In this document: one piece after another, positions 9,803 to 49,094 of the stretch
Layout: each line of letters starts with the position of its first letter
Position numbering within the stretch: position 1 is the first letter of the stretch
DNA from: Prochlorococcaceae cyanobacterium jk18x22bins.40
Lineage (GTDB): Bacteria; Cyanobacteriota; Cyanobacteriia; PCC-6307; Cyanobiaceae
Direction of reading: 5' to 3'
Length of the DNA stretch: 64,000 nt
Assembly: GCA_022826155.1 (NCBI GenBank)
Contig: JAJDVL010000048.1
Coordinates: 1-64,000 of the forward strand
Notes under the pieces: model-generated
Databases searched by the model: none
Told to the model about the DNA's origin: nothing
The model's input: only the letters and a program-made list of their open reading frames with translations
Translations under genes and position numbers: made by a program

Positions 9803-10633
9803 GTGAACAAGCTCTTTGCCGACCTCCTCATCAAAAGTGCAGGAACCGGCGGACCACGTATTCGCCAGAGCAGGCGGGGGATTGAGACCAAGTCAGCCCA
9901 GGAGCTGGCCAAGATGCGACAAGCCAGCCGGATCGTGGCCACGGTCTTGAAAGAAATCATGGCGCTGGTGGAACCGGGGCAGACCACCGCCGCGTTGGAT
10001 GCCCACGCGGAACAACGCATTCGGGACATGGGCGCCGTGCCCAGCTTCAAGGGTTATCAGGGCTTTCCCGCCTCCATCTGCGCCAGCATCAACAACGAAG
10101 TGGTCCACGGCATTCCCAGCCGTAAGCGGGTGATTCGGGACGGGGACCTGCTGAAGGTGGATACCGGGGCGTGTTTTGAAGGCTTCCACGGGGATAGCTG
10201 CGTCACCATTGCGGTGGGCTCCACCAGTGATGCCGCCCAGCGGCTGAGCCGCGTGGCCCAGGAAGCCCTGATGCAGGGTCTGGCCCAGGTGCGGGCCGGT
10301 AACACGCTGCTGGACATTGCCGGGGCCGTGCAGGATCACGTGGAGGCCCATGGCTATGCCGTGGTGGAGGACTACACAGGCCATGGCATTGGCCGCAACC
10401 TTCACGAGGAGCCCTCCGTCTTCAACTACCGCACCAACCAGTTGCCCAACATGCGCTTGCGCCCGGGCATGACCCTGGCGGTGGAACCCATTCTGAACGC
10501 AGGCGGCAAAGTCTGTCGCACCTTGCGGGACGGCTGGACCGTGGTGACAGTGGATCACTCCCTCTCCGCCCAGTGGGAGCATACGGTGCTGGTCACTCGG
10601 GACGGCTGCGACATCCTCACGGATCGGGGTTGA
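9803..10633 (+). CDS. map: Methionine aminopeptidase type I
   Basis: Removes the initiator methionine from nascent proteins; a dinuclear metalloenzyme. The metal ligands sit in recognisable motifs: [15 protein letters not shown] (two Asp), [17 protein letters not shown] (His), [10 protein letters not shown] (Glu) and [11 protein letters not shown] (Glu). NNEVVHGIP holds the conserved substrate-site His. The 276-residue length includes a ~25-residue N-terminal extension ([11 protein letters not shown]). The 3' end overlaps the SDR gene on the other strand by 17 bp. Confidence 0.95.
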
Positions 10634-11351
10634 CCACGTCTGCCGGGCGGGTGCAGAGCCGTCCATAGAGGGCACCCATCAAGCTGGCCAGGGGGGCCAG
10701 GAGGTAGGTGCAGGGATTGAAGCTCACAATGATGAGCCGCAGATCCCAGGCCGCCAAATTCAGAATCCACTCCGCCACAAAATCAGCGGACATGGGACCA
10801 TAGGGGTTCAAGCCACTCCGAAACGGTCCCAACACCAAGCGCCGGACGGGGCAGGGTGCATCCAGGCTCTGGAGGGTGAGCAGGGTTCCCAGGCTGCGCT
10901 TGCTCACTTCATAGACGGGGCTGAAGGCAGGCCCCACCTCCGCCTCGGAGGTGTTGACCCAGAGTTCACGGTGAACCCGCCGCTGGTGTGGAAGTTGACG
11001 GGTTTGACGGAAGAACAGGTCAATCAAAGCCTGGGCACTCAAGAGATTGGCCTGCAAGGTTTCGGCAATGGCTGTGGCGTCACGGCGCCCCAGGGGATTG
11101 ACGCCGTGGTTAATCACCAGGATGTCCACGTCCAGAAGCAGTGCTTCCAGGGCAGCGTCAATCTGCCCGTTCCACACCAGCCAGCGCTTGGTGGGACCAT
11201 CGTCCCGGGGGGCCGGGCTCCGGCTGATGCCAACCACCGTGGCCCCTCGGCGTTGTAACCCCTGGCGCAGCGCCGTGCCCAGGGCACCGCTGGCACCCGT
11301 GACGGCAATACGCCTTGACCAGGGATCCCGGCGCTGGTGCATAAGGGTCAT
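10617..11351 (-). CDS. Short-chain dehydrogenase/reductase
   Basis: A 244-residue Rossmann protein. The dinucleotide-binding motif is [19 protein letters not shown] near the N terminus, the NNAG-equivalent is [12 protein letters not shown], and the catalytic pair is in [11 protein letters not shown] (YxxxK). The hydrophobic C-terminal tail ([22 protein letters not shown]) could be membrane-associated. In many cyanobacteria such a domain is the second half of a sterol desaturase/SDR fusion; here it stands alone. I start at the ATG at 11351 (MTLMHQRRD), because the frame upstream to 11741 shows no protein-like sequence. Substrate unknown. Confidence 0.8.
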
Positions 11352-13618: not shown

Positions 13619-14923
13619 TCAGGCAATCTCCGCAAAGGACTCGCGGAAGGCCTCCAGGGTGGTGTCGATGTCGTTGTCGCTGTGGGCCAGGGAGGTGAAG
13701 CCCGCTTCAAAGCCGCTGGGCGCCAAGTAGACACCGCGCTCCAACATGGCCCGATGGAGTCGGCCAAACCGCTCGTGGTCCGCCTTTTTGGCATCGGCAA
13801 AGTTGCGCACGGGCTGGTCACGGAAGAAGAAGCCGAACATGCCGCTGATGCTGCCGCCGCTGATGGGGAGCCCCGCCTCTCGGCCCGCTTCCAGAATCCC
13901 TGCCACCAAGCGCTTGGTGACGGTCTCCAGGTGGTCATAGGCACCCGGGCGCTTGAGGAGCTCCAGGGTGGCAATTCCGGCAGCCATGGCCAGGGGATTG
14001 CCGCTGAGGGTTCCAGCCTGATACATGGGACCTTCCGGAGCCACCATGGCCATCACGTCGGCCCGACCACCGTAGGCTCCCACCGGCAACCCACCGCCAA
14101 TCACCTTGCCCATGGTGGTGAGATCGGGAGTGACGCCAAAGCGGGCCTGGGCGCCGCCGTAGCTAATGCGAAAGCCTGTCATCACCTCGTCAAACACCAG
14201 CAGGGATCCCTGGTCCTGGGTGAGTTCCCGCAGTCCCTCCAGGAAGCCGGCATCCGGGGGAATGAATCCGGCATTGCCCACCACAGGCTCCAGAATCACG
14301 CCGGCAATCTGGTGCTGGTGTTCCGCAAACAACGCCTTGACGGCTTCCAGGTCGTTGTAAGGGGCCGTCAGAGTGGAAGCCGTGGCCGCACGCGGCACGC
14401 CCGGGGAGTCGGGCAGGCCAAGGGTGGCCACGCCGGAGCCCGCCTTTACCAGGAACATGTCCGCATGGCCGTGATAGCAGCCCTCGAACTTGATCAGCTT
14501 GTCCCGACCCGTGAAGGCGCGCATCAGCCGCAGGGCCGCCATGCATGCCTCCGTGCCGGAGTTCACGAAGCGCACCTTCTCCACGGAAGGCACGGCCTCG
14601 ATCACCATCTCCGCCAAGGTGTTCTCCAACAGGCAAGGGGCGCCGAAGGAGGTGCCCTGGTCCAGGGCTTCATGGAGGGCGTTGATCACCTCGGCACGGG
14701 CATGGCCACAGATGGCTGGCCCCCAACTGCCCACGTAGTCGATGTAGCGGTTGCCGTCCACGTCCCACACGGACGAGCCTTTGACGTGATCAAAGACAAT
14801 GGGGTTGCCGATGACTGAGCGAAACGCCCGGACCGGTGAATTAACGCCCCCCGGCATCAGTGCCTGGGCGGCGTCAAAGATCTCTTCGGAGCGGGTCGTA
14901 TTCAGCGGAGAAGCTGGAGCCAC
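13619..14923 (-). CDS. hemL: Glutamate-1-semialdehyde 2,1-aminomutase
   Basis: PLP enzyme that converts glutamate 1-semialdehyde to 5-aminolevulinate, the entry to haem and chlorophyll synthesis in cyanobacteria. Motifs: [13 protein letters not shown] at the N terminus, [47 protein letters not shown] and the PLP lysine in [18 protein letters not shown]. Length 434 is standard. The start is a GTG at 14923 ([14 protein letters not shown]). A palindrome lies about 30-45 bp upstream of the start. Confidence 0.96.
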
Positions 14924-39958: not shown

Positions 39959-42900
39959 GCTGCGGATTGCGGCCCTTCCTCGGTTTGCTACACTTCATTT
40001 TCTGGGAGCTTGTCCCCATACTGATGGCTGCGGATTGCGGCCCTTCCTCGGTTTGCTACACTCCACGCTGGCTATGGCCCAGTAGCAACTATGCTGCGGA
40101 TTGCGGCCCTTCCTCGGTTTGCTACACTTGCTCTGTGACACCACCCCCAGGCTTTTGTGCTGCGGATTGCGGCCCTTCCTCGGTTTGCTACACTAGTAGC
40201 AGGAGCGGGGACGTCTGCCCTGGGGCTGCGGATTGCGGCCCTTCCTCGGTTTGCTACACTATGCTTCCTGGTGTTAAATGTTGCGTCGGGGCTGCGGATT
40301 GCGGCCCTTCCTCGGTTTGCTACACTATTCCCAGTCATATATAACACAGTAGGCGTGCTGCGGATTGCGGCCCTTCCTCGGTTTGCTACACTTTGCAAAG
40401 GTGATCGCCGCGCAGCTTGTGAGCTGCGGATTGCGGCCCTTCCTCGGTTTGCTACACTCACCACAACCACCGACCCTGAAACCCTCCCGCTGCGGATTGC
40501 GGCCCTTCCTCGGTTTGCTACACTGCAGCACGGCCAGAACCGCCAGCCTTTTTGAGCTGCGGATTGCGGCCCTTCCTCGGTTTGCTACACTTCACGGAGA
40601 GAAGCCAAACGAAAGAGCCGGTGCTGCGGATTGCGGCCCTTCCTCGGTTTGCTACACTCCTAGAGGAAGCCGCCTTCCACCATTCAATGCTGCGGATTGC
40701 GGCCCTTCCTCGGTTTGCTACACTTGGCGCCACCCTCACCAATACGGCCGGGGGGCTGCGGATTGCGGCCCTTCCTCGGTTTGCTACACTTTCTTGCCGC
40801 CTGGGAGCAGCGTGACGTGAGCTGCGGATTGCGGCCCTTCCTCGGTTTGCTACACTCATCAACACTTGGCCGCTACTGCCCAGTGCGCTGCGGATTGCGG
40901 CCCTTCCTCGGTTTGCTACACTGGCGTTGGTTTTGCCCATGTACCTAATATAGCTGCGGATTGCGGCCCTTCCTCGGTTTGCTACACTGGCCACGGGTGA
41001 CGGACGGACGCTGGACACGCTGCGGATTGCGGCCCTTCCTCGGTTTGCTACACTTCCGGCAGGCCGTGGAGCAGGGGCGACGGGTGCTGCGGATTGCGGC
41101 CCTTCCTCGGTTTGCTACACTCACCCGGTCAGCGTCGTGGAGTGCCATGGCGCTGCGGATTGCGGCCCTTCCTCGGTTTGCTACACTCATGAAGTTCAAT
41201 CGCAACGCTCTCAAACGGCTGCGGATTGCGGCCCTTCCTCGGTTTGCTACACTCTGACTGCCGTCCTTCTTTATCGCCTCTTCGCTGCGGATTGCGGCCC
41301 TTCCTCGGTTTGCTACACTCACTATTGGTGCGTGGGCCATCTGTCACTCGCTGCGGATTGCGGCCCTTCCTCGGTTTGCTACACTTGCAGGCGGACGAGG
41401 TCTCCGTCCACGCGGGGCTGCGGATTGCGGCCCTTCCTCGGTTTGCTACACTGCTCGATCGACACGAGGACCTGGAACTGGGGCTGCGGATTGCGGCCCT
41501 TCCTCGGTTTGCTACACTCTGTCGTCGTCAGCGGCCCTGAGGTCGTGGGCTGCGGATTGCGGCCCTTCCTCGGTTTGCTACACTCAGGGGATCCTGTACT
41601 CCGATTGATCCGATAGCTGCGGATTGCGGCCCTTCCTCGGTTTGCTACACTAGAGTCTTTGATGTTCTTGAGATCGAGGTCGCTGCGGATTGCGGCCCTT
41701 CCTCGGTTTGCTACACTGCGTTGAGCGACGCCTTCAAAATGCAAAATGCTGCGGATTGCGGCCCTTCCTCGGTTTGCTACACTGGCCTGGATCACGGTGC
41801 CGAAAACCTGTGTGCTGCGGATTGCGGCCCTTCCTCGGTTTGCTACACTCACTGGCACGGCGCCTGTCATCACTGATGGGCTGCGGATTGCGGCCCTTCC
41901 TCGGTTTGCTACACTGGCTTGCGTTTCTCGGCGTTGTTTGGTATGGCTGCGGATTGCGGCCCTTCCTCGGTTTGCTACACTCAGCGCCAACCACGGCAAC
42001 AGCGCCAACCAGCTGCGGATTGCGGCCCTTCCTCGGTTTGCTACACTTTCTAGCAATTTTCCGCTGTCCCCGAACGTGCTGCGGATTGCGGCCCTTCCTC
42101 GGTTTGCTACACTCGTTGCGCGTGAGGTCGCGCTTGAGGCATTGCTGCGGATTGCGGCCCTTCCTCGGTTTGCTACACTCAGCCCACCTGTCGCGCGATC
42201 GAGTGAGATGCTGCGGATTGCGGCCCTTCCTCGGTTTGCTACACTCCGTCCCAGGTGGTGTTGCTGTAGGTCAGGCGCTGCGGATTGCGGCCCTTCCTCG
42301 GTTTGCTACACTCACCCAGGCAGGGTTCTCCATGCGTGTCACGCTGCGGATTGCGGCCCTTCCTCGGTTTGCTACACTCCCGATGTTGTCGCCCATCACC
42401 ACCTCGTAGCTGCGGATTGCGGCCCTTCCTCGGTTTGCTACACTCCCCTCCTTCGTATTGAAGATCTTGAGATGGCTGCGGATTGCGGCCCTTCCTCGGT
42501 TTGCTACACTCCCCTTTGCTCGATTCTAGCTTAGCTTATCGCTGCGGATTGCGGCCCTTCCTCGGTTTGCTACACTGTGTCGGGAAAGCTCTGGGATCTG
42601 TTGCTGGCTGCGGATTGCGGCCCTTCCTCGGTTTGCTACACTTACAACAGCGGTGAGCAGTCGCGCCATTGGGCTGCGGATTGCGGCCCTTCCTCGGTTT
42701 GCTACACTCGGATCGTCCTGACAAAAACGCATCACTGTGCTGCGGATTGCGGCCCTTCCTCGGTTTGCTACACTTAAGACTGTATTACAGATTGTTCAAA
42801 TCTGGCTGCGGATTGCGGCCCTTCCTCGGTTTGCTACACTCGGCACGCTGGTGGTGTTGAGTGCCAACTGGCTGCGGATTGCGGCCCTTCCTCGGTTTGC

Positions 42901-44226
42901 TACACTCGCCGGTGAACGCAGCAGCGACACAGAGCAGCTGCGGATTGCGGCCCTTCCTCGGTTTGCTACACTCTCTCGCGTCTGTCTGGAACCGCTTCAC
43001 CAGCTGCGGATTGCGGCCCTTCCTCGGTTTGCTACACTCAGCGGCACAAAGCCAACGATGCTGGGATCGCTGCGGATTGCGGCCCTTCCTCGGTTTGCTA
43101 CACTCGGCGCGAATCCCCGAGTCATCCAGCCCAGGCTGCGGATTGCGGCCCTTCCTCGGTTTGCTACACTCATGAAATTCAACCGCAACGCTTTAAAAAG
43201 GCTGCGGATTGCGGCCCTTCCTCGGTTTGCTACACTGGTCCTGTCGTGGCCCGGTCGCGCCTCGGTGCTGCGGATTGCGGCCCTTCCTCGGTTTGCTACA
43301 CTCCGGATCCCGGCGCTCCACCGCTGTGAGCAGCTGCGGATTGCGGCCCTTCCTCGGTTTGCTACACTGATGCCGGGGGCCGCGTGGTAGGCGGCAGCGC
43401 TGCGGATTGCGGCCCTTCCTCGGTTTGCTACACTTGTGCTTGGTCAATTTGGTCTCCTGGGAATGCTGCGGATTGCGGCCCTTCCTCGGTTTGCTACACT
43501 AAAGAGTTGAGTCGTTGGGAATTGAGAATTGCTGCGGATTGCGGCCCTTCCTCGGTTTGCTACACTTCCACTGCCATCCACCATCCAATGAAAAATGCTG
43601 CGGATTGCGGCCCTTCCTCGGTTTGCTACACTGCGGAAGAACATCGACAAGTTTCAGTTTGGGCTGCGGATTGCGGCCCTTCCTCGGTTTGCTACACTAA
43701 TGGGCGCCCTTCAGATGCAGCGGCAGACGCTGCGGATTGCGGCCCTTCCTCGGTTTGCTACACTGCTGACCGAATTTCCCGTACAGGCTGTTGAGCTGCG
43801 GATTGCGGCCCTTCCTCGGTTTGCTACACTCGTGAATGCCGCTGACACGTCTGTGCACAGGCTGCGGATTGCGGCCCTTCCTCGGTTTGCTACACTCAAC
43901 GCGCTGAATGCTGGCGGCAATGAGGTGCTGCGGATTGCGGCCCTTCCTCGGTTTGCTACACTCCGCTGAGCCATGAGCATTGCCAGTCTCGCGCTGCGGA
44001 TTGCGGCCCTTCCTCGGTTTGCTACACTCTTGGCCAGCAACGACCGCTTCCGAGAGAGGCTGCGGATTGCGGCCCTTCCTCGGTTTGCTACACTCCCACG
44101 GGTTCACCCCATCAGCCCAGTTACGCTGCGGATTGCGGCCCTTCCTCGGTTTGCTACACTCCTGGTACTCCAGGTCACGGCGTCGTCAGCGCTGCGGATT
44201 GCGGCCCTTCCTCGGTTTGCTACACT
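39959..44226 (+). CRISPR. Type II-C CRISPR array: 65 repeats, 64 spacers
   Basis: I counted 65 copies of a 36-bp repeat that begins GCTGCGGATTGCGGCC, continues CTTC and ends CTCGGTTTGCTACACT. The first is at 39959-39994 and the last at 44191-44226. As far as I can see all copies are identical, with no degenerate end repeat. Of the 64 spacers, 57 are 30 nt, six are 31 nt and the first is 32 nt. The repeat is very close to the one I recall for Parvibaculum lavamentivorans. The tracrRNA on the same strand pairs with this orientation, so crRNAs are plus-strand and the array runs opposite to cas9-cas1-cas2. Confidence 0.99.
39967..39994 (+). promoter_or_regulatory. Promoter-like element inside each repeat (first copy shown)
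   Basis: Within every repeat, TTGCGG at repeat positions 9-14 and TACACT at 31-36 are 16 bp apart, with TG one base before the second hexamer. This reads as a -35 box and an extended -10 box directed into the next spacer. Neisseria meningitidis type II-C repeats carry the same kind of terminal extended -10, which drives one short transcript per spacer. Function here is inferred from sequence and position. Confidence 0.5.
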
Positions 44227-44275: not shown

Positions 44276-44626
44276 TCAGAAAAACTCCAACTGGGCGGGT
44301 GAAACTGGTGGCTCTTGGCGCATTTTTCCCATGTAGGTCTCGATCCGGCCAAACTGCTTGTCTGTGATGGTCAGGAAGCGCACCTCCCCTGCTGAGGGAA
44401 CGCAGCGGCCAATGCGGACCACATGGATCCTGGCGTTCTCAATGGAGGCGCAGTGGCGGATGTACACCGAGTACTGCATCATGGTGAAGCCATCCCGGAG
44501 CAGGGCCTTACGAAACCGGGTGTAGGCCTTGCGGGCTTTGGCCGTATCCGTTGGCAGGTCGAACATGGCAATCACCCACATGGAGCGCCATCCCCAAGGA
44601 ATTTGCCGCACCGGCCCCGACGTCAC
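44276..44626 (-). CDS. cas2: CRISPR-associated endonuclease Cas2
   Basis: Structural half of the Cas1-Cas2 integrase that inserts new spacers. A 116-residue ferredoxin-fold protein: WVIAMFDLPTDTAKARKAYTRFRKAL with the conserved Asp at residue 23, MMQYSVYIRH and VRFLTITDKQFGRIETYMGK. The start overlaps the cas1 stop as ATGA. Only 49 bp separate its stop from the last CRISPR repeat. Starting at Met16 (MWVIAMFDL) would give a more usual length, but the coupling with cas1 favours the ATG at 44626. Confidence 0.95.
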   Translation of the reverse strand: MTSGPVRQIPWGWRSMWVIAMFDLPTDTAKARKAYTRFRKALLRDGFTMMQYSVYIRHCASIENARIHVVRIGRCVPSAGEVRFLTITDKQFGRIETYMGKMRQEPPVSPAQLEFF

Positions 44627-45578: not shown

Positions 45579-48500
45579 TCAGTCGTTTGCCAGGCGAACT
45601 CGTCCAATTGGATCAATGGAGACCTTTTCTGCGTGACTTCTCAATAGCAAGGAATTCACTGTCGGCCGTGTTCTACTTTCTCCTGCTGCATCATTATGGT
45701 CAACAATCACGACCTGACCAGATGACCAAATACTTTCAATAATCACTATCTTGATTTTATTATCTTGTGTGAGCCTTAATGAATCACCCTTAGACAAAGA
45801 CATACGAAACTTTGCGCCGTCATTGCGCTCACGTTGAACGATGGGCTGTCGTCTCGTCAAACGTTGTGAAGCCTCGAGTAAGCTAACGGAATCATAGTCC
45901 ACTTCCCCATTGGACAGTTCATAAAGCGCTATGTGATGATTACCATCCAAGTCAGCATAGCCCTTGATAGTTGATTTCACTGGAGTCATCAGTTTAATTT
46001 GCTGCTTTACGAGCAAGCGTACCTTGCGAACTTCTGGACCACCATCTCCCAAAGTTGGATAAGAGCCCTGAAAAGCCCTCTTTGGATCACCACCATGCTT
46101 TTCCACCCAATCCCTGACAATTCTGCGCACCTCATCGTCGCGGATCTTCTCTCTCAATTCTGTTCTACTTAACGCCTCAACATTCTTCCGTGTGACAAAG
46201 AGTCGATAGTCTATCCTACCTGTCGTTTCCTCTTTGCACGTATCGCCGTAAATTGTCTCCTTGTGAAGCCTCCCGGAAACTTTCTTGCGGACGCGATGGG
46301 ACACAACAATGGCTTCCACAGCCTTTTCAGCATCACTGCGGATTGTCTCCCAAGGAGGTGAGAAGCTGGGTTTCTGGACGGTGGGGCGGAGATTGTCCTT
46401 GTCTTGCCAGTAACGAGAGAGCTTTTGCGTCATGCCAGGGTGCGTGCAGGCAACTGTCAGGGCGTCGACGGCATGGTGGCGATGGTCGGCACGGTTTTTC
46501 TCGCCGGTGTCTCCCAGAATCCTGTTCAAGCCCCACAGTCGGCGCAGGTGTGCCGTGACCCGTCCCGACACAGCCTGAACCCTGACCTTAGTCTCTTGGT
46601 CAGGCCATAGCTGCTTGAGATAGGCAACAGCCTCTCGGGCAGCATATCCTGTATCATTGAGCTGCCGCTCAGAAAAATCATCCGGGATTGCTGTTGCCAG
46701 AAATCTTTTTACTTTACCAGGAGACATGCCCACACCTCCCTTCCCGTTTGCTTTCATCTTTTCCAGACGACTAACTATATCTTTCCATTTCTCCTGGTCA
46801 TGACCAAGAAACTCAAAAGGTGTTTTGTTGCCTTTTTGAAGATTAAAATCTCTCCTACAAAGAGTCTTATTTCTAAAGCTATCATCTAAAGAACGAGAAC
46901 GTGGCCAAATATGTTCAACTTCAAATTTGTTGTTTTGAAACAGGTCCTCAAAACAAATATGGTCACCGGTGTAAGGACACTGATGGCCACACTCGTTCCA
47001 CAGCATCCACTTCTCAATATCGTTGCGTGAGGGTTCGGAGAATCCTTCTTTTTCCTGAAGTCCTTTACGGGCTTCATCGCGGCGCTTCTCCTGGCGCTTC
47101 ATTCCCTTTTGTTTTTCCTCCCGCTCCCGCTTGGAAAGACCCACATCCCGCGCCAGCTCAACGCGGATCTGATCCGGCTTTCCAAACATATCAATCAGGT
47201 TATTGGCCACTTTGCGCAACTCATTGCGTGTCCGTGCTACGGTGGGATTGCGTAGGCTGGCAATGTGATCACACTCTTGTTTGTTCTTGGGACTGGGCAG
47301 GTGATCAAAGCATCGGCTGGTCTGCTCTTGATGATTGGGAAATATTTCTTCACGCCATGGGGCCATGTCAGGCCCATTGATAATTTCACCAAACCGCACA
47401 CCCGCTTCCAGTAGGGGCAGAATCTTCTGCAATGCTTCCGTTGAGTAGGGCTCCCAACCTGTGGGAAGCTTCAAAGTCTTGATTTTCTTCGCCTGCTCAT
47501 CGGACGCGCCAAACCTGTCCATGAAATACCGTGCTGCCTGTTCCCTTTGTTCTGTCCGCTCCTTGGCCGAACGGATAACAACCCGCTGCCCCACAACCCC
47601 ATAATCTGCTTTCCAGAGACGTTCAGGCAAATCGTCTCGGATCTCTTGCCGACGTGGATGATCTGGCCAGGCTTCGCCAAAGATGTCCGCCAGCTTTGCC
47701 TCAATCATATTCCCGAGCAGTTTGTTTTCTCCACCCTGCTCCAAGTTGAACTTCAGAAGCTTTTCATCTACAGACCGGTTCCGCCTTCGATAGAAAGACT
47801 TCAGGGCTTGCCGAACTCCTGGCCATGTCATGGAGGCCCGGGTTTGCAGTTTGGCCAGAATGGCTTGACGTTCTTCTTCATCCAGACAGCGCTGCTCCGT
47901 GCCCACAAGCTGGAGATTGTTCAGCTTTTCCAGCATCCGCCGTTGCTGGGATAGCCAGGATCCTCGTGGACAAAGGTCTGCCCCAGGCAGAAAGCGACAC
48001 TTGCCAAGGGTCTTGAGGCGCCAGAAAACAGGTCGCTGGTCAAAAATAGCCCCACGCACCTCTGCCTTGGCCTGATCATTGGGCAAACAGGGTGCCCATA
48101 TCTGATCAAACTCATCCTCAACAACTTTACGGGTGGCGTGTCTGCCCCGCTTGCGCTCGTTCGGTTCCCGTTCCGCCAGCCAAGCGCCAAGGGTTTTGCC
48201 CTCCCGTTCCAGGGCTTGCAGGGTGTCCTCCCGTGCAGACATTGCCTGCTTATCTGCTTCCTCCTGATCTGCATCCCTGTTCCTGGTCTCAGTCTCGTCA
48301 TCACCAGCAATCTCGTCAATATCCCGCCCTTTGAAATGCCGCCGCTGGGCCAGATGATAGATGGCCCGCCCCACAGCATAGGGGGACAAGCGATCACCCT
48401 CAAAAATCCATTCGGGAAGCCCAGCCCGTTCAGCCTTCATGGCCGCAAATACTTCGTGGCATGACCCATCAGATTCCGCCTGTTGAAGATTGAATGCCCA

Positions 48501-48815
48501 TTTGCGCAGTTGATAGGGATCAGCTTCCATGACCTTGCTCCACTCGGGTGAGTTCCGCTTTGGGAGGAAGCCATGCTGATGCAGCAGTTCACCCAGCTCC
48601 TGGCGCCGCTGACGCCGCCGCCGCAACTGGCGCCGTCGCATCCGCGCCGCACGGCGATCCTGGTTCAGAGGGACTAAAGCCTTGGGGTCACGGGCTTCAG
48701 GAAAGATGCGCACCCCAAGCCGATGGATCTTGCCGTTTCCCTGCTCAGGATCATGGTCAATGACCGCAAATCCAATAGACGTGGTGCCGATATCAAAACC
48801 GAAAACCAATGCCAT
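45579..48815 (-). CDS. cas9: CRISPR-associated endonuclease Cas9, subtype II-C
   Basis: RNA-guided DNA nuclease of 1078 residues, in the compact II-C range. RuvC-I: FGFDIGTTSIGFAVID with catalytic Asp8. Arg-rich bridge helix at about residues 53-80 (RRAARMRRRQLRRRRQRR). RuvC-II: IRVELARDVG near 553. HNH: NKFEVEHIWPRSRSL with catalytic His near 632 and FRNKTLC near 650. RuvC-III: ADHRHHAVDALTVAC near 782. All catalytic residues are present, so the protein should be active. Codon use at 46600-47100 is more AT-rich than in neighbouring genes, which fits acquisition by transfer. Starts at the ATG at 48815. Confidence 0.98.
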   Translation of the reverse strand: MALVFGFDIGTTSIGFAVIDHDPEQGNGKIHRLGVRIFPEARDPKALVPLNQDRRAARMRRRQLRRRRQRRQELGELLHQHGFLPKRNSPEWSKVMEADPYQLRKWAFNLQQAESDGSCHEVFAAMKAERAGLPEWIFEGDRLSPYAVGRAIYHLAQRRHFKGRDIDEIAGDDETETRNRDADQEEADKQAMSAREDTLQALEREGKTLGAWLAEREPNERKRGRHATRKVVEDEFDQIWAPCLPNDQAKAEVRGAIFDQRPVFWRLKTLGKCRFLPGADLCPRGSWLSQQRRMLEKLNNLQLVGTEQRCLDEEERQAILAKLQTRASMTWPGVRQALKSFYRRRNRSVDEKLLKFNLEQGGENKLLGNMIEAKLADIFGEAWPDHPRRQEIRDDLPERLWKADYGVVGQRVVIRSAKERTEQREQAARYFMDRFGASDEQAKKIKTLKLPTGWEPYSTEALQKILPLLEAGVRFGEIINGPDMAPWREEIFPNHQEQTSRCFDHLPSPKNKQECDHIASLRNPTVARTRNELRKVANNLIDMFGKPDQIRVELARDVGLSKREREEKQKGMKRQEKRRDEARKGLQEKEGFSEPSRNDIEKWMLWNECGHQCPYTGDHICFEDLFQNNKFEVEHIWPRSRSLDDSFRNKTLCRRDFNLQKGNKTPFEFLGHDQEKWKDIVSRLEKMKANGKGGVGMSPGKVKRFLATAIPDDFSERQLNDTGYAAREAVAYLKQLWPDQETKVRVQAVSGRVTAHLRRLWGLNRILGDTGEKNRADHRHHAVDALTVACTHPGMTQKLSRYWQDKDNLRPTVQKPSFSPPWETIRSDAEKAVEAIVVSHRVRKKVSGRLHKETIYGDTCKEETTGRIDYRLFVTRKNVEALSRTELREKIRDDEVRRIVRDWVEKHGGDPKRAFQGSYPTLGDGGPEVRKVRLLVKQQIKLMTPVKSTIKGYADLDGNHHIALYELSNGEVDYDSVSLLEASQRLTRRQPIVQRERNDGAKFRMSLSKGDSLRLTQDNKIKIVIIESIWSSGQVVIVDHNDAAGESRTRPTVNSLLLRSHAEKVSIDPIGRVRLAND

Positions 48816-48826
48816 GCAACAACCCC

Positions 48827-48855
48827 TTGCACAAGCTGAGAGAGAATGCTATTAT
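48827..48855 (+). promoter_or_regulatory. Sigma-70 promoter for tracrRNA
   Basis: TTGCAC at 48827-48832 and TATTAT at 48850-48855 are separated by exactly 17 bp, and TG at 48847-48848 makes an extended -10. The predicted transcript start, near 48862, falls right at the anti-repeat. The element lies between the cas9 start codon (48815, minus strand) and the tracrRNA, pointing away from cas9. Confidence 0.75.
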
Positions 48856-48861
48856 CGCATA

Positions 48862-49003
48862 CGTAGCAAACCGAGAAGTGGTCTCCGAATTGGTTGGCTG
48901 CTTGCAGCCGCTTTTCGCAGCAAAATGACCCTTCGTGTGGGCTCGGCATCCCAAGGTCAACCGCCGGCACCCCAAACCCTCGCCCCAGGGCGGGGGTTTG
49001 TTG
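48862..49003 (+). ncRNA. tracrRNA of the type II-C system
   Basis: The anti-repeat GTAGCAAACCGAG (48863-48875) is complementary to repeat positions 21-33. AAG-T-GGTC (48876-48883) extends the pairing to repeat position 13 with one bulged T and one G-U pair, and CGCAGC (48916-48921) pairs with repeat positions 1-6. Between these parts lies an extra hairpin, GGCTGC-TT-GCAGCC (48896-48909). Downstream, TGACC (48926-48930) pairs with GGTCA (48955-48959) around GTGGGCTCGGCATCCCA, a segment very like the Parvibaculum tracrRNA as I recall it. The RNA should guide RNase III processing and bind Cas9. The end is set by a hairpin. Confidence 0.85.
48973..49003 (+). terminator. Terminator-like hairpin of tracrRNA
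   Basis: CAAACCCTCGCCC (48973-48985) can pair with GGGCGGGGGTTTG (48988-49000) over up to 13 pairs including one G-U, with the innermost pairs opened for the loop. The following bases TTGCATC are a weak T run. In cyanobacteria strong hairpins without long T tails are common, so this is the likely 3' end of the tracrRNA. Confidence 0.65.
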
Positions 49004-49094
49004 CATCAAGCCATGGGGGTGGTGTGCTGGCACAGGTAGGAAAAACACCACACAGTCGCCACCATCATCTTCCGGCCACGGGTAGGACTTGAGC

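Follow-up and report, generated by a model that had tools for sequence, protein, structure and literature searches.

A conserved, lineage-specific insertion in the anti-repeat of a predicted tracrRNA from a sponge-dwelling cyanobacterium

How could Cas9 work with a guide RNA duplex that is interrupted by a large insertion on one strand? This question is raised by a CRISPR (clustered regularly interspaced short palindromic repeats) locus within the window analysed here, a 64,000-nucleotide stretch (contig JAJDVL010000048.1, assembly GCA_022826155.1) of Prochlorococcaceae cyanobacterium jk18x22bins.40, a sponge-dwelling cyanobacterium with a genome of 1.99 Mb. Its genus includes Candidatus Synechococcus spongiarum isolate 1 (L061), and our comparison set within the genus comprised the window and the genomes G005 and G002 (L061 being the G002 system), all with intact systems, together with G003, which has lost cas9. 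A sequence-only reading had proposed that the trans-activating CRISPR RNA (tracrRNA) of this locus carries an extra hairpin in its anti-repeat, the part that pairs with the repeat of the CRISPR RNA (crRNA). In our judgement, the element is likely a functional tracrRNA that serves an intact, type II-C-like system of Candidatus Synechococcus spongiarum, the taxon to which the window belongs, with an anti-repeat in which a lineage-gained insertion of 26 nucleotides (nt) would be extruded as a side arm.

Comparison with the nearest systems outside the genus delimits the insertion. The closest Cas9 proteins are 62% (L058, a contig of a metagenome-assembled genome), 55% (L063, Proteobacteria LL2.bin68) and 45% identical (both L059, Phaeovibrio sulfidiphilus, and L060, alphaproteobacterium AAP81b). 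These four loci resemble that of the window in the repeat start GCTGCGG, the type of lower anti-repeat (three of the four have GCTTTTCGCAAGC), the downstream scaffold and the divergent tracrRNA upstream of cas9, but all lack the 26-nt insert, and GGTC (or its equivalent) directly joins GC(T/G)TTT or its equivalent. The general form is GGTC-GCTTTTCGCAAGC, and the anti-repeat of L058 reads GAGAGGTGGTC-GCTTTTCGCAAGC without interruption. Their duplexes are continuous with one bulged A, whereas the duplex of the window is interrupted opposite repeat positions 12/13.

The coordinates and bases given by the sequence-only reading are all correct, including the palindrome GGCTGC-TT-GCAGCC at 48896-48909. 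Of the two anti-repeat parts that it distinguished, 48863-48883 can indeed pair with repeat 13-33, with C20 and U48879 bulged, and CGCAGC (48916-48921) does pair with repeat 1-6, but co-folding extends this 3' part to 48910-48921, opposite repeat 1-12. The surplus, put at 40 tracrRNA bases against 14 repeat bases, shrinks to 26 nt (48884-48909) when the gapless relatives are taken as reference. The six-base-pair hairpin closed by TT is drawn by folding programs as five base pairs with a CUUG loop; a sixth C-G pair inside such a loop is structurally reasonable.

In a maximum-likelihood tree the window, G005 and L061 are monophyletic (100/99), L058, L063, L059 and L060 form the sister clade (97/99), and all seven group together (100/100). 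Because the insert is missing in the four sister-clade loci and in the wider sample described below, the simplest reading is that it is derived and was gained along the S. spongiarum branch, where the anti-repeat would have acquired 26 nt opposite repeat positions 12/13. The possibility that the hairpin is general among relatives was not borne out, since it is shared within the genus and lacking outside it.

The wider sample was drawn from a genome-wide scan (80 loci), from plasmids and from samples of two proteobacterial classes. Arrays were detected, anti-repeats were located and each repeat was co-folded uniformly with a 66-nt tracrRNA; 95 repeat/tracrRNA pairs passed. The surplus on the tracrRNA strand was 26 nt in the window and 27 nt in G005. 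When these two and L119 are excluded, the surplus was 0 in 74 pairs, at most 5 in all but one, and 11 nt at its maximum (L245, without a hairpin), with the proviso that anti-repeats were assigned automatically and a few ordinary loci may be mis-assigned. Canonical type II-C tracrRNAs have no large insertion on the tracrRNA side, and the 26-27 nt surplus departs from that form. About 90 to 110 other Cas9 systems were examined and none had a comparable insert; the survey thus bears out the view that an insertion bulging from the crRNA:tracrRNA duplex is unusual. Several candidates for a second case were rejected. The large surplus of L119 belongs to a spurious array resting on a single chance repeat pair, and large inserts in L073, L095, L107, L124 and L254 disappeared under the uniform 66-nt tracrRNA, L254 then falling outside the count. 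An apparently independent hairpin insert in L079 (Candidatus Sabulitectum) came from an anti-repeat-like stretch beside the array that had been mis-assigned as tracrRNA; the true tracrRNA of that locus is found upstream of cas9, and its pairing is uninterrupted. Ortholog catalogues report varied tracrRNA bulges, stem lengths and non-canonical folds, and in the portions covered here they mention bulges in the duplex and not a hairpin insertion in the anti-repeat such as the window has (PMC7606464, PMC10278012). We found no direct description of a hairpin in a Cas9 anti-repeat in the literature, where an unnoticed example may exist in the supplements of such catalogues.

Within the genus, the inserts of G005 and G002 are 26 nt long, as in the window, and the palindrome GGCTGCTTGCAGCC shows 0/14 differences among the three genomes. 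The adjoining 12-nt linker differs at 9, 10 and 3 positions in the three pairwise comparisons (window against the other two: 9/12 and 10/12; Fisher p ~7e-5 and ~1e-5 for linker versus palindrome, window against G005 and G002). Synonymous divergence (dS) between the cas9 genes is ~0.7-0.8, with a ratio of nonsynonymous to synonymous divergence (dN/dS) of ~0.2. Since the 14 sites are unchanged while linker and synonymous sites diverge, the invariance of the palindrome points to selection. Pairing of the last 4 nt of the linker with GGTC (48880-48883) remains possible in all four genomes, and a second small hairpin between the linker end and GGUC is possible. In G003, where only a 32-residue Cas9 remnant was found, the palindrome is altered at 4 positions and still more changes have accumulated in the scaffold; the exact repeat core was not found in this genome. 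An origin of the palindrome in a genome-wide repeat element is unsupported: the tracrRNA is the sole site of the exact 14-mer in the window genome, and the one other exact match outside tracrRNAs in the genus (G001) lies in tracrRNA-unlike sequence. Judged from these comparisons, the anti-repeat insertion is genuine; it is a derived and conserved feature that so far looks unique.

What would such an insertion do to the guide? In all models with the full repeat, repeat 1-8 and repeat 21-33 are base-paired and the intervening strand is pushed out of the duplex, and repeat 1-6 pairs with the 3' part of the anti-repeat at a probability of ~1.0 in every model. In the proposed mechanism, repeat 1-12 would bind 48910-48921 as in the relatives and repeat 21-33 would bind 48863-48875, while the intervening tracrRNA strand is predicted from the full-repeat folds of three sequences to be extruded as a structured arm, creating a three-way or four-way junction. 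The sequence-only reading thus had the architecture right in outline, and the three-way (or more) junction that it suggested for the guide duplex is well supported; the exact side arm is less secure than the junction itself, and the named hairpin is one of two candidate arms in the bound state. With a crRNA truncated at repeat 24, self-folding of the 5' anti-repeat is predicted to persist only in the window sequence.

The 12 spacer-proximal positions gripped by Cas9 would be unchanged, and the arm would exit where engineered guides carry a loop. According to the parts of the structural descriptions covered here, CdCas9 recognises a 12-base-pair duplex through the bridge helix, REC1 and WED (PMC6488586), and AceCas9 encloses the first half of the duplex with the bridge helix and REC1 and leaves the 12th pair uncontacted (PMC7733487). 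For C. jejuni, interaction with Cas9 is ascribed to the first 15 nt of the repeat. The solved structures of CdCas9 (6JOO), AceCas9 (6WBR), Nme1Cas9 (6JDV) and ThermoCas9 (9AR4) resemble the window Cas9 in overall fold. The guides of CdCas9 and AceCas9 are simple duplexes with an artificial loop after 12 base pairs and no natural side arm in the portions covered of their descriptions, whereas the window has a natural insert. By analogy with these two structures Cas9 would tolerate the arm, and its accommodation without disturbance of the lower duplex is plausible because the insert begins just beyond repeat position 12, at the margin of the segment held by Cas9. A three-way junction in a guide RNA also occurs in the omegaRNA of IscB (PMC9640706), which differs from the window guide in being a single RNA with no tracrRNA.

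The Cas9 protein carries an insertion of its own. The segment directly after the PYxLR motif has 14 residues in 113 other Cas9 proteins (15 in one) and 45 in the window and G005; by alignment, residues 110-140 of the window Cas9 (LQQAESDGSCHEVFAAMKAERAGLPEWIFEG) are the addition, which is missing from L058, L063, L059 and L060. A predicted model (mean predicted local distance difference test score, pLDDT, 83) shows it as a helix extension and a helix at 119-130, with pLDDT ~77-85. It evolves under purifying selection (dN/dS 0.15-0.18), and no other large lineage-specific Cas9 insertion was found. Like the RNA insertion, it maps to the S. spongiarum branch, and it lies at the start of REC1, a domain that is reported to grip the guide duplex. 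Co-adaptation of the tracrRNA and REC1 insertions is plausible but unproven. We offer tentatively, as a hypothesis to which we give distinctly less than an even chance, that the palindrome acts by folding, either by preorganising the free tracrRNA, by offering a contact for the additional REC1 segment, or by both.

Several points weigh against a functional extruded hairpin of this kind. RNAcofold gives the named hairpin a base-pair probability of 0-26% in the bound state. The folding energy of the palindrome is unexceptional, as 37-51 of 200 shuffles fold equally well; the feature that exceeds chance is the conservation of the palindrome, not its stability. The 31-amino-acid (aa) REC1 segment is acidic, so direct contact with RNA is not obvious, and the RNA and protein insertions co-occur as a single evolutionary event. 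Finally, the insert could be trimmed away or cleaved when the RNA is processed.

The alternative that survives best, at close to an even chance, accepts the junction and assigns it another arm. GCC (48907-48909) would pair with repeat 13-15, leaving the palindrome GGCUGCUUGCAGCC open, the displaced GGUC would pair inside the insert (GGUC/GACC in the relatives, a longer GU-rich helix in the window), and the named hairpin would fold in the free tracrRNA only. This arrangement is the RNAcofold minimum: pairing of 48907-48911 (GCCGC) with repeat 11-15, which frees GGUC, has a probability of 74-100% in the three genomes, and the last four linker bases vary across the four genomes only by changes that preserve pairing with GGUC. 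However, its energetic advantage with the full repeat is ~1 kcal/mol (0.8-1.4), which is within model error, and the parameter set assigns equal energy to the four loops tried, CUUG included. CUUG is an unusually stable loop. Because the gap is so small and the loop receives no bonus, either arm is possible. The competing arm also differs from genome to genome, and it leaves the invariance of the palindrome arms and loop unexplained; since both arms and the loop are fixed and the competing arm needs neither, the comparative data lean toward the named hairpin.

It is also conceivable, but unlikely, that the insertion is nearly neutral, a solvent-exposed scar that is tolerated and not selected against. 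Its position at the site at which loops are placed in engineered guides, the uncontacted 12th pair in the available description of AceCas9 (PMC7733487) and the ordinary energy of the hairpin are all compatible with a scar. A scar would fit poorly with 0/14 changes at dS ~0.7 while neighbouring positions change, with equal length in three genomes, and with a palindrome that changes only where cas9 has been lost.

A third alternative holds that Cas9 never sees the insert, because the mature tracrRNA begins downstream of it or because cleavage takes place at the side hairpin. RNase III generally processes the crRNA:tracrRNA duplex in type II systems, which lends this idea some weight. We consider it somewhat less probable than a neutral scar, since a discarded insert would need no conservation and the scan of 48780-49060 revealed no promoter-like site 3' of the insert. 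The promoter-like site that was found (listed by the scan in a 16-nt-spacer register) has counterparts of the form TTGCRC / TANNAT with similar spacing at the tracrRNAs of G005, G002 and L058. It places the predicted start of transcription at ~48862, just 5' of the anti-repeat and not after 48909, so that the insert would be present in the RNA. The weakest alternative, that the insert mimics the repeat (TTGGTTGGCTGC against TCGGTTTGCTAC) and keeps the tracrRNA closed on its own 5' anti-repeat until crRNA arrives, draws on a free-tracrRNA fold of 48862-48925 in which GUAGC and AACCGA pair with the insert, but it is improbable given that the mimic lies mostly in the variable linker, the folds of G005 and G002 differ and the helix is missing from the fold of the full-length window tracrRNA.

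Guide engineering adds hairpins at the loops of Cas9 guides, and here evolution seemingly placed one in the duplex and kept it, beside a lineage-specific insertion in the Cas9 domain that holds this duplex. Should the RNA and REC1 insertions belong together, a Cas9 that reads an extra guide element would be available as a natural example open to testing, with a bearing on how Cas9 proteins become orthogonal to the guides of other systems and on the sites at which a guide can tolerate, or may require, a side arm. Should they be unrelated, the locus would still suggest that a conserved junction can be tolerated in the duplex at a distance of 12 pairs from the spacer.

The surrounding locus appears, from its sequence, to be an intact type II-C-like system in which Cas9, Cas1 and Cas2 are accompanied by an array of 65 repeats and a divergently oriented tracrRNA (Table 1). 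It is judged intact because of the 65 identical repeats (letter-identical in 65/65 copies, GCTGCGGATTGCGGCCCTTCCTCGGTTTGCTACACT), the 64 different spacers and a Cas9 dN/dS of 0.18. The RuvC and HNH residues D8, H635, H778 and D784 are conserved. Type II membership follows from the array together with a tracrRNA whose anti-repeat is complementary to the repeat, and the gene order cas9-cas1-cas2-array, with no space for a further cas gene, is that of type II-C. Neither csn2 nor cas4 lies beside cas9, cas1 and cas2, a statement that covers this cluster, as open reading frames farther out were not searched against families. The Cas9 fold matches Nme1Cas9 and ThermoCas9, and the nearest solved proteins by sequence and fold are of the Thermo/Geo, Nme and other II-C types, in a comparison that covered Cas9 proteins of solved structure. 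Rfam yielded no tracrRNA match in the window, and the terminator-like stem was not called by a scan for terminators with a T tract.

Table 1. Features of the CRISPR-Cas9 locus, in window coordinates
Feature	Coordinates	Strand	Remarks
CRISPR array	39959..44226	+	36-nt repeat in 65 identical copies; 64 spacers of 30-32 nt, all different
cas2	44276..44626	-	
cas1, type II, TIGR03639	44623..45567	-	
cas9, 1078 aa, TIGR01865	45579..48815	-	profile match 626 bits; dN/dS 0.18-0.20 within genus
31-aa Cas9 insertion, residues 110-140, start of REC1	48396..48488	-	in three S. spongiarum Cas9s; in 0/113 others
tracrRNA promoter-like site TTGCAC-17-TATTAT, TG before -10 box	48827..48855	+	no other sigma-70-like site in 48780-49060; mean of 0.1 in shuffles
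tracrRNA, predicted transcript	48862..49003	+	anti-repeat, downstream module common to L058, L063, L059 and L060, terminator-like stem; putative ends
anti-repeat 5' part, GTAGCAAACCGAGAAGTGGTC	48863..48883	+	pairs with repeat 13-33 in ancestral register; 21-33 robust, 13-19 contested by insert
genus-specific 26-nt insertion	48884..48909	+	missing in L058, L063, L059, L060; equal length in G005, G002
variable linker of insertion	48884..48895	+	last 4 nt GGTT / GACC / GACC / GATC across four genomes
conserved palindrome GGCUG-CUUG-CAGCC (hairpin B)	48896..48909	+	unchanged (14/14) across the three intact systems; altered at 4 positions in G003
anti-repeat 3' part	48910..48921	+	pairs with repeat 1-12; UU/UU internal loop at repeat 9-10
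nexus and downstream scaffold	48922..48971	+	TGACCCTTCGTGTGGGCTCGGCATCCCAAGGTCA kept in L058 and L063 with few changes
terminator-like GC stem, ~48973-49000, weak T tract	48972..49003	+	12-bp stem in fold

Each repeat of the array (39959-44226) ends in TGCTACACT, which resembles an extended -10 box; II-C arrays with a promoter in every repeat have been described (PMC12080349). An exact search of viral contigs with 4 spacers returned no protospacers, and the protospacer-adjacent motif was not obtained. The spacer at 43770-43798 matches the DNA polymerase gene of Arthrobacter phage Mendel at 29/29 positions (E 7e-4) and that of Methanosarcina spherical virus at 88%. Its reverse complement reads NSLYGKFGQ, resembling a conserved motif of family-B DNA polymerases, and its target may be a phage polymerase of that kind.

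In G003 the relic tracrRNA (L022 / L139; G003:C85 about 14600-14914) beside the cas9 remnant is a natural record of decay after the loss of cas9. Unpaired tracrRNA inserts of ~4-11 nt at repeat 13-17, near the S. spongiarum insertion site, occur in L124, L128, L137, L250 and L245, which are mostly gammaproteobacterial. The Sabulitectum relatives (L079 11412-11560; L263 about 10590-10812) have an anti-repeat-like stretch directly 3' of the array, separate from the real tracrRNA, that can fold back on the last repeat.
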